Shown here piece after piece: positions 2,961-6,444 of a stretch of DNA of 64,000 bases. The stretch's first letter is position 1. Each line of letters opens with the position of its first letter. This DNA is from Thecaphora thlaspeos (taxonomy: Eukaryota; Basidiomycota; Ustilaginomycetes; Urocystidales; Glomosporiaceae), in the NCBI GenBank assembly GCA_900291925.1, contig UWYS01000021.1:372001-436000 (forward strand), given 5' to 3'. Below the pieces are notes generated by a model. It had not been told where the DNA came from and ran no database searches. It saw only the letters and a list, made by a program, of their open reading frames with translations. The position numbers and the translations under genes were made by a program.

Positions 2961-5900
2961 ATGGCTTCCTTGTTTGCAAAGGCGAGGGAGAGGGCCGAGG
3001 CCGCTGCTCAGCAGTTTCAGGCGTCGCACTCCTCCTCCTCCGCCGCCGCCGCCGCCAGTGGCCAGTCGGGCAACCCTACATCCTCCTCCGGCGACGCTTA
3101 GTGAGTAGCCATTAGCCATCCCCCTTCCATCGCCCCGTCGCCCCGCTAACATCCCGCTACCTCCTTCTACTCCCGCTTCCATCAACACACTGCCAGCTTC
3201 TCCTACTCGGGCGTTGTCCCGCACCTCCTCCGACAGGGAATCGCCTCCGTCGACCCGCGATACGAGTCCAACCGTCCACTGCATCTCCTCAGCGGATCCA
3301 TCAAGAGCTTCAACATCGACCACGACGCCCTCTCGCGAGAGGCAAAGGCCCTCGCAAAGTCCACCTACAATTGGGGCCAGAGCCACCTCCCCGAGAACCG
3401 CGAGGATGGCGTCGGAGACGAGATGATCGCAGACGTGTAAGTGCGCGCCCTGTCCCTTCTCCAGCCACGGCGCACACTCGACTCGCTCTTCGACGCTTGG
3501 TGGGCTTGATCTTTGACCGCCTCGTTCGCCCCTTCTTTCGCATGCTCTCTTACACGCCCTTCCCCCTTACAGCACCGACCGCCTGGCCTACCTCTTCCAC
3601 CAAATCGCTCAGCTCGAGGCGTCCCACTGCGCTCGAGCCGAGCAGGCCAGAGCGACGCTCAAAAAATTCCAGAAGGACGAGATGGAGCTGGCCGCCCGAC
3701 GCGACAAGCGCATCAGGCTCAAACGCGAGCTGCACGCCCTCATGCCGCAGCAGGCCGTCGCATCCGGCGGCGGCAAGGCCGCCGAGCTGCGCAAGCAGCT
3801 CGACGAGCTCAACAACGAGGACCAGGCCGACGAGGAGTCGCTCAGCAGGAAGAAGCGCCAGGGCCTCCAGCAGGGCTACACCGAGATGTTTGACAGCATG
3901 ATTGAGCTCGGCGAAAAGACGGCCCTCGTCGCACGCTACGGCAAGCTGCTCACCAGCCTCGTCTCGACCGAAAAGTCCAGCTTCCCCGCCCAGGTCAGGG
4001 CGAGGAGTCCCGAGATTCCGCTCTGGGAGGGAGCCCACAAGACGGCCGAGATCCGCGCTGCGTTGCAACCAGCGCTCCAGACGTACAAGCTGATCGATAC
4101 CCTGCCCAGCATCCCGAGTTCCGGAGCTTTAGGCCTCGGACGCGCAGACACGGTCTCGTACGCCGTGTCAAACAGAGCCGACCTGGAGCACAAGGAAAGC
4201 GACTCGGCCGCTGACGGGGCAGCAGCAGCACCAGGCGCTCGCCGCAGCTCTGCTCAACACCGCCGCGCCAGCTCGGCCTCGGAGCACGGCAGACCCGCCG
4301 ATCCCTTCGCGTCGGCCCACGACGCTCCCTCGTCCTCGGCACAGTCGCCGCAATCGCACCTCAACATGAGCCCTAGCGCCCTGCCCCCTCCGCCCTTCCC
4401 GCCTAGGCGCGTACCGTCGAACTCCGGCCTCGGCTCAGCCAACCCGGCAGGCTCGCTCAACTCGCCCCTTCCGCCTAGCGCAACCCCGCTGCGCGCTCCC
4501 GATCCTTCGCGCTCGCCCACTTCGACCTTCGCTGCACTGGACCTGGGCATGGAAGAGGGGGGCAACGGCAACCTTCCGGCCGGTCCGACGGTGGCCGAGA
4601 CGGGAGTCGTCCCGTCCGGGACCGGCGGGCCGAAGTCGGGCACGTTGCTTCCCCGCCGATTGTCGTCGCTCGGCCGCTCCAAGTCGATCTCGGCCGGCGC
4701 CGTCGCCTACCTGGGACCTGCCGGGACCTACTCGCACCAGGCGGCAGTCAAGGTGTTTGGCAAGGAGGGCGCCAACCTGATCCCGATGCAGAGCATCACG
4801 GGCGCCGTCGACTTTGTCAAGCGAGGGAGCTCTGGCAACGTCAAGTTTGCCGTCGTCCCGATCGAGAACAGCACTTTTGGACCGGTCAAGGAGTCCATCG
4901 ACGGCCTCTGCGACCTCGGCGGCAGCTCGAGCGGTGCTAGCGGCAAGGCCTACGTGATCGGCGAGACCAGCCTCGAGATCCAGCACGCCCTGCTCTGCGG
5001 ACCCAAGACCTACCAGCACCTCCTGCAGCTGCAGGGCTCGCGCGACAACGTCGACGCGATCCGCATCGAGACGCTCTCGCACATCAACCATGTCTTTTCG
5101 CACGAGCAAGCGCTGGGCCAGTGCGCGGCCTTCCTGGAACGCTACATGTCGTCGGCGCGTAAGAAGCAGGTCGACTCGACCGCCGGAGCCGCCGTGGCCG
5201 CGCTCGACGTCGAGAACTGCACGGCGCCCGGCTTCGCATCCGCCGCCCTTCAGTCGGCCCACGACACGCAGGGCGCGGGCACCAACCATCTCGTCGCCGC
5301 CATCGGCCCGCAATCGTGCGCTGAAGAGGTGGGCATCCGCGTGCTGAGGATGGCGATCCAGGACGCCGAAGACAACCGCACGCGCTTCCTTGTGCTGGCG
5401 AGCGAGCCGCTCGACATGGTGACCCGCTCGGCGATCCTGCCTGGCCAGCTCCAGGCGCACCTCGACGCGAGCCAGCGCGGGACCGTCAGGTTGAGGTCGT
5501 TGATCCGCGTCTTTGACGGTATGGAGGCTGATGTCGACGTCGGCGCTGTCGGAGCGAGAACGGCGGCGGCGGCGTCGGCGGCGTCGTCGTGGCTGCCGCT
5601 TACTTTGTCCAAGTTCCAGAGGCTGCTGAGCGAGGTCAGCAGCGATCCGCAGACGCGCGTCCGCAAGATCGAACGCCGCCCTGCGCCGTTTGTCGGCGGT
5701 GCTAAAGCGAGCTCCGGAGAGAGCGGTCCAATGGCAGTGACGCTGAGCATTTGGAAGAGCGCCTACCTGGTCGAGCTCGAGGTGGACGGCAGGCAGGCAG
5801 AGGAGGGCCGCCGTCGCTTTGAGTCCGTCGCGACGAAGCTGGGCGGCAGCATCGGCAACACGGCCAGCTCCGGCAGCTACTTTGAGCGTGGAGTGGACTA

Positions 5901-6444
5901 CTTGGGAAGCTGGAACGTCAGCCTTCAGTCCTCGCAGGGCGCCGGCGAGGGGGGCAGCAGCAGCAGCAGCAGCAGCAGTCGAACTACGGCCGCGGGCGAG
6001 ACCGTGTATCCGAGCACGCCGGCGCGACCCTTCCGCTCGTCGCCAAACCCCTTTGAACCGTCGGCGTCTTCGTCGTCGGGGATCTCGGACCTCGCGACAC
6101 CGGGCCACGCCGTGCGACGTCCGGGCGGCGGGACGAACACCAACCCCTTCACCAACACCGAGGGTGGTGGAGGGATGGTCGCTTCCGGCAGCAGCACCTC
6201 GTCCTTCTCGACCGACACCACGGTGCACGTTGCGCCAGAATTGAGCGAGAGGGAGAAAAAGGAGCAAGAGGCGAAGCGAGAAGCGGACGAAGTGAGACGA
6301 CATGCGCTCCAGGCTCGGTTCAGTCGACAGCAACAGGGCGGCTACGCAGCCGAAACACAGCCGAGCTTGGGCGGTCTACAGGAGAGTCAGGAAGAAGTGG
6401 ACGCAGGCGAGAAAGAGTACTTGCCGGCGTACGAACCGTTCTAG
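2961..6444 (+). CDS. Fusion protein: eisosome Pil1/Lsp1-type region plus prephenate dehydratase with ACT-like region
   Basis: Three exons (2961-3100, 3197-3436, 3573-6444) give 1083 residues; exon 3 is one uninterrupted frame. Residues about 60-300 resemble the Pil1/Lsp1 BAR core: DVTDRLAYLF, a long charged coiled region, then MFDSMIELGEKTALVARYGKLL. A Ser/Pro-rich linker of about 200 residues follows. From residue 503 comes prephenate dehydratase: YLGPAGTYSHQAA, VVPIENSTFGPV, and the catalytic TRF motif at 730-732. An ACT-like part carries KIERRP near 827, matching the ESRP phenylalanine-site motif. A disordered tail with a Glu/Lys-rich helix ends YLPAYEPF. Known roles: Pil1 shapes plasma-membrane eisosomes; the dehydratase converts prephenate to phenylpyruvate for phenylalanine synthesis. 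I know of no family that joins them. No stop codon, and no splice signal that I could find, separates the halves. Confidence 0.88.

Follow-up and report, generated by a model that had tools for sequence, protein, structure and literature searches.

A prephenate dehydratase joined to a divergent Pil1-family protein in Thecaphora thlaspeos and other Ustilaginomycetes

Eisosomes are known membrane organizers whose role in metabolism is less clear, and prephenate dehydratase (PDT) makes the precursor of phenylalanine. Here, we describe a gene of the smut fungus Thecaphora thlaspeos that joins the two, encoding a Pil1-family domain followed by a PDT; it lies on the plus strand at positions 2961 to 6444 of the window, i.e., the whole stretch of 64,000 nucleotides that was analyzed. 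Among the closest described systems, the stand-alone basidiomycete PDTs of the PHA2 type (in Suillus, Schizophyllum, and Jaminaea) have the same catalytic motifs but are free enzymes. In the bifunctional chorismate mutase-PDT (P-protein) of bacteria and early fungi, PDT is likewise fused to another domain; however, the partner there is the preceding pathway enzyme and not a membrane scaffold, and the fused PDTs of smut fungi group apart from it. Pil1 and Lsp1 of Saccharomyces cerevisiae share with the fusion a BAR core that covers the whole PF13805 profile and some of the lipid-site residues compared below, whereas the fusion has lost others, carries an enzyme on a long tail, and is one of three family loci in its genome. 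Yeast Xrn1 is also a soluble enzyme that is gathered at eisosomes (PMC4374687, PMC6723945), but its association is reversible and noncovalent, and it is not a biosynthetic enzyme. An earlier note on this DNA, made from the sequence alone, knew of no description of a Pil1/PDT pairing, and none was found in the literature that we searched, also by the locus tags of the fused genes, with most subscription journals and all supplements outside reach. Databases name the fused proteins by domain.

Three GT-AG exons splice into a single open frame of 1,083 amino acids (aa). The 957-codon frame of exon 3 that the earlier note had read across the two halves corresponds to 956 whole codons plus the stop and spans the Pil1/PDT join without interruption; the motifs it had listed are located at 4714 (GPAGTYS), 4858 (PIENSTFG), 5380 (TRF, within TRFLV), and 5665 (KIERRP). 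Both halves score above the respective Pfam cut-offs: PF13805 with 178.3 bits (cut-off, 27), covering positions 10 to 263 of the 265-position profile, and PF00800 with 145.8 bits (cut-off, 25.2). A search of PDB sequences returned 8 matches, 4 of them Lsp1/Pil1 entries aligned to the first half and the others, 3 PDTs and one “probable chorismate mutase,” aligned to the start of the second. The features are as follows.

2961..3100, plus strand: exon 1 (GT-AG model), encoding an N-terminal helix, MASLFAKARERAEAAAQQ, and then a low-complexity stretch
3197..3436, plus strand: exon 2 (GT-AG model), encoding the N-terminal portion of the Pil1 domain
3573..6444, plus strand: exon 3 (GT-AG model and open frame), encoding the remainder of Pil1, the linker, PDT, ACT, the tail, and the stop
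3033..4089, plus strand, with two introns inside: Pil1-family BAR domain, aa 25 to 299 (Pfam PF13805, E 2.8e-52; sequence matches to Lsp1/Pil1 in PDB)
4090..4701, plus strand: disordered Ser/Pro-rich linker, aa 300 to 503 (predicted local distance difference test score [pLDDT] of <50 across U. maydis residues 257 to 493)
4576..4692, plus strand: conserved linker island, aa 462 to 500, GPTVAETGVVP..GGPKSGTL.PRR.S, common to the fusions and the PDT-less protein P0024
4702..5406, plus strand: PDT catalytic domain, aa 504 to 738 (Pfam PF00800, E 1.6e-42)
5482..5922, plus strand: predicted divergent ACT domain, aa 764 to 910, beta-alpha-beta-beta-alpha-beta (structure prediction), with LGSW near the domain end
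5923..6441, plus strand: low-complexity C-terminal tail, aa 911 to 1083, with one predicted helix, seen in the U. maydis model
6421..6432, plus strand: LPAY motif near the C terminus, preceded by an acidic stretch; [LP]PxY across the fused clusters

The N terminus encoded by exon 1 is similar in those relatives whose models extend that far.

The fusion is conserved among smut fungi. A whole-protein search, in which 7,985 candidates were scored and only long proteins were taken, found both Pfam domains in 23 of 24 homologous protein clusters. The fused clusters come from 11 named species, two of which are represented by two clusters each: Pseudozyma flocculosa, P. hubeiensis, Thecaphora frezii, Testicularia cyperi, Ustilago trichophora, Sporisorium reilianum, S. 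scitamineum, Kalmanozyma brasiliensis, U. maydis (where the fused gene is UMAG_00461), Melanopsichium pennsylvanicum, and Violaceomyces palustris. According to a taxonomy look-up of the genera, Thecaphora, Violaceomyces, and Testicularia each belong to a different order, and the fusion therefore occurs in three or more orders of Ustilaginomycetes. The PDT half of Violaceomyces, the most distant fusion, used as a query against proteins of 0.55 to 1.75 times its length (only the 7,994 candidates that shared the most words with it being scored), returned 23 proteins, all of them known fusions and none from beyond Ustilaginomycetes. Our main alignment (A1) contains 19 rows, namely, the window protein and 18 of the 23 fused clusters (P0008, P0011, P0017, P0020, and P0021 are absent); P0002 is missing its N terminus, and N-terminal positions are counted over 18 rows. 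P0022, whose C terminus is apparently out of frame, was dropped from the profile and identity tests. Pairwise identity, averaged over 153 pairs, is 0.76 for Pil1, 0.75 for PDT, 0.47 for ACT, 0.58 for the linker, and 0.50 for the tail, and the Pil1 and PDT halves both look constrained. That two genes were joined by an assembly or annotation error, which the earlier note had named as a refuter, is ruled out for practical purposes by the 23 fused clusters from 11 named species and by the one uninterrupted exon, and nothing in support of such an error was found.

The fused gene is the only PDT detected in its genome. A six-frame, exon-by-exon search of the 20.6-Mb assembly (32 contigs) with the PDT family profile matched the fused gene alone, and two stand-alone basidiomycete PDTs used as queries, at E values up to 10, returned only the same locus. 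The Pil1 family is represented by the fused locus and by two more, located on C7 and C9. Two of the checks proposed in the earlier note are answered by these searches: a separate PDT was not detected, and further Pil1-family loci are present. Chorismate synthase and EPSP synthase were found in the genome and biopterin hydroxylase (PF00351) had no match in it; the enzyme of the tyrosine branch is unaccounted for, PDH_N (PF02153) being unmatched.

The PDT half has retained its motifs and fold. The residues E-N-S, S-H-x-Q...Q-C, S-T, and T-R-F are invariant in all 19 aligned sequences; we take the PIENS-type and SHxQALGQC strings to be PDT motifs, and TRF is named as one in the literature (PMC10845154). 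A Pfam search of the 1,083-aa protein matched no ACT family, and a divergent ACT domain of beta-alpha-beta-beta-alpha-beta fold is predicted by structure modeling to follow the catalytic domain. The motifs by which the ACT domain of PDT is described as binding phenylalanine are GALV and ESRP (PMC10845154). ESRP is found in none of the 19 fused rows, 16 of which have [DE]RRP in its place, and a GAL-type string is found in only one (P0001). Since the canonical motifs are not retained, phenylalanine feedback cannot be assumed; of the earlier interpretation, a real and conserved fusion stands, while phenylalanine sensing by the ACT part is weakened. Of 20 stand-alone PDTs that were checked, 15 have DRRP and a terminal GxW (at the end or within two residues of it), like the fused ACT domain; the three Microstromatales, one rust, and one Rhodotorula model differ in being without DRRP...GxW.

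A single [LP]PxY motif, preceded by an acidic stretch, is found near the C terminus of the window protein and in 22 of the 23 fused clusters, P0022 being without it. Motifs of this kind bind the WW domains of Rsp5-type ubiquitin ligases, and the fused scaffold may therefore be ubiquitin controlled.

Our preferred reading, which we consider moderately probable, is that the Ustilaginomycete PDT, joined to a divergent Pil1 paralogue, is active and is displayed on eisosome-like membrane lattices. A whole basidiomycete PDT, comprising the catalytic and the divergent ACT domains, would have been joined to the disordered tail of a Pil1 paralogue in the common ancestor of the sampled Ustilaginomycetes. 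The Pil1 half would most likely still bind acidic lipid of the plasma membrane and form eisosome-like lattices together with the Pil1 paralogue that is more canonical; from these lattices the PDT, suspended by the flexible linker at the cytosolic face, would convert prephenate to phenylpyruvate. The fusion itself is a natural covalent tie between an enzyme of the phenylalanine branch and an eisosome-family scaffold, and through it the enzyme may be tethered to eisosomes, as the earlier note had suggested. A routine step of biosynthesis would then have been relocated to the cell surface, and U. maydis offers a system in which a connection of eisosomes with metabolism can be tested.

The lipid sites speak on both sides. 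In the cryo-electron microscopy description of yeast Pil1, R126, K130, and R133 are assigned to phosphatidylinositol 4,5-bisphosphate, R43, K66, and R70 to phosphatidylserine, and F33, Y40, F42, and F50 to the sterol site (PMC11324527). When these positions are transferred to the fusions through an alignment with PDB sequences, which is loose at the N terminus for some of them, R126 and K130 are retained in 19/19 and K66 and F33 in every one of the 18 rows covering that part. Thus, 3 of the 6 charged lipid-pocket positions and 1 of the 4 sterol-site positions are kept, amounting to half of the charged site and less of the sterol site. By fold, the Pil1 half of the U. maydis relative matches Lsp1/Pil1 structures, with PDB entries 8qb7, 8qb8, and 3plt matched by both sequence and fold.

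Several observations weigh against a working, membrane-bound scaffold carrying the only PDT. R133 is replaced by Q, E, or A, R70 by I, and R43 by L or F, with an adjacent R59 in 18/18 of the aligned fusions; in 18/18, Y40, F42, and F50 of the sterol site have become P, L, and V. This replacement of most sterol-site residues weakens the preferred reading and its bolder form (see below) and strengthens the alternative of a neutral fusion. By eye, the R...K..R stretch is better preserved in the C7 paralogue, which marks the fused copy as the divergent one. The fold matches are modest (template modeling score by target, 0.43 to 0.53; root mean square deviation, 9 to 15), from a model with a mean pLDDT of 58.2 (P0013) in which the relative arrangement of the domains is not readable; the other four whole-protein models have means of 41 to 50. 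Meu14 and Ssp1, ascomycete paralogues, are described as acting at spore membranes (PMC12470953). Finally, the exon-by-exon search left PDH_N without a match, perhaps through splitting by introns or divergence of the gene, and the evidence against a second PDT rich in introns is therefore strong but not absolute.

A bolder form of the preferred reading places phenylalanine synthesis of Ustilaginomycetes under membrane control, with the PDT obligately held in the eisosome lattice and its phenylpyruvate output set by lattice stretching, lattice disassembly, or permease traffic there. Eisosome domains are described as housing nutrient transporters, including Tat2 (PMC6723945). We regard this proposal as speculative and, on balance, doubtful; if true, the state of the plasma membrane would be read out directly as amino acid synthesis.

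About equally doubtful is the neutral alternative, in which the PDT landed in a Pil1 paralogue and the old gene was lost, tethering brought no benefit, and the Pil1 part functions or drifts on its own, possibly away from the membrane. The two other Pil1-family loci could supply the eisosome function, 3 of the 6 charged pocket positions and 3 of the 4 sterol-site positions are altered, and a stand-alone PDT is undetected in the T. thlaspeos genome, all of which would suit such a history; however, the cores of the Pil1 and PDT halves are equally conserved. Separate halves were not seen within Ustilaginomycetes either, although this counts for little in a search that took long proteins only.

The lattice might instead serve as a store: eisosomes would retain or inhibit the PDT, and lattice disassembly would alter its activity, by analogy with yeast Xrn1. 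The activity of Xrn1 is reported to be attenuated by eisosome association (PMC6723945), and Pil1 lattices are described as stretching with a change in the occupancy of their lipid pockets (PMC11324527); Xrn1, however, has no covalent link to the eisosome scaffold, and we consider this version unlikely.

Still less likely, in our estimate, is that the one gene yields two products, with linker cleavage or alternative transcripts or starts freeing a PDT that in practice is a cytosolic enzyme. The linker is long (approximately 170 to 223 residues among the fusions) and disordered, and cleavage within it is possible in any of these species. It contains one or two methionines in 6 of the 19 sequences (the window protein, at 392 and 453, and P0001, P0002, P0004, P0013, and P0023), Met392 being common to 4/19, including the distant Violaceomyces. 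However, Met453 is found in the window protein only, 13 of the 19 sequences have no methionine at all in residues 300 to 503, and the next common one, Met532 (18/19), falls inside the PDT, past GPxGTY. For most of these species, we therefore consider it unlikely that a whole PDT arises from a separate start.

As to the origin of the fusion, the named relatives outside Ustilaginomycetes have stand-alone PDTs, among the best 120 of 873 matches: Jaminaea, Sympodiomycopsis, Agaricomycetes, Rhodotorula, and a rust. Jaminaea rosea belongs to Microstromatales (Exobasidiomycetes) by taxonomy look-up, and Sympodiomycopsis is a member of the same order. A PDT tree was built from 43 rows (the window protein, 8 fused clusters, and 34 further sequences hand-picked from the same best 120), with a midpoint root for drawing only. 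The 9 fused PDTs form one group (support 97/76, just below the program's mark for strong support), which joins the 3 stand-alone Microstromatales rows with support of 96/99; the 6 rows from bacteria and the 8 from early fungi fall elsewhere. Horizontal transfer of the PDT from bacteria is thus not supported. The Microstromatales PDTs (P0026, P0029, and P0098) end shortly past the catalytic domain, seemingly without ACT, which the adjoining fused group retains; the PDTs of the rust (P0045) and the Rhodotorula model (P0064) likewise end early.

P0024 is a Pil1 protein without PDT whose Pil1 domain is 0.44 to 0.52 identical to those of the 20 fusions in a second alignment (A2); the respective values for Violaceomyces and the other 19 fusions are 0.56 to 0.62. 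The linker island is recognized in P0024 with 25.1 bits, a score reached by 0 of 5,000 shuffles, and its C terminus has LPPY, resembling the LPAY of the fusions (score reached by 12/5,000). Homology of the whole tail is unsupported (tail profile, −17.8 bits; tail region reached by 1,073/5,000), as is that of the tail helix (735/5,000) and of an LNMSP piece (96/5,000). The last seven residues of P0024 look like read-through of what we take to be a sequencing adapter. The presence of the island and of a similar C-terminal motif in a PDT-less protein suggests that a preexisting Pil1 paralogue acquired the PDT within its tail, probably between the linker and the old C terminus; P0024 could also reflect a secondary loss of PDT. 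The order of events is supported, not proven, by the tree and P0024. In this view, an enzyme gene was apparently taken up into a scaffold protein's disordered tail, and sister lineages still show the separate arrangement. One candidate for a stand-alone PDT, P0025 (249 aa, 56% identical to the query), appears by eye to be out of frame past TRF, and we interpret it as a damaged fragment of a fused gene. Many of the best 120 matches bear no species name, and 753 of the 873 lie outside these 120, so stand-alone PDTs within Ustilaginomycetes may still exist.

In the neighborhood of the gene, an open-frame piece on the minus strand at 2083 to 2418, head to head with the fused gene, matches the start of SARAF (PF06682, E 1.4e-09). 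Two tRNA genes with Rfam matches, at 6921 to 7026 and 54356 to 54459 (both on the minus strand), each slightly exceed 100 bases in length and so probably contain introns; ARAGORN reported none. A segment at 7475 to 7585 resembles by eye an intron-bearing minus-strand tRNA, with no match at the Rfam gathering score, and a 5S rRNA gene is found on the minus strand at 58174 to 58292 (Rfam match).
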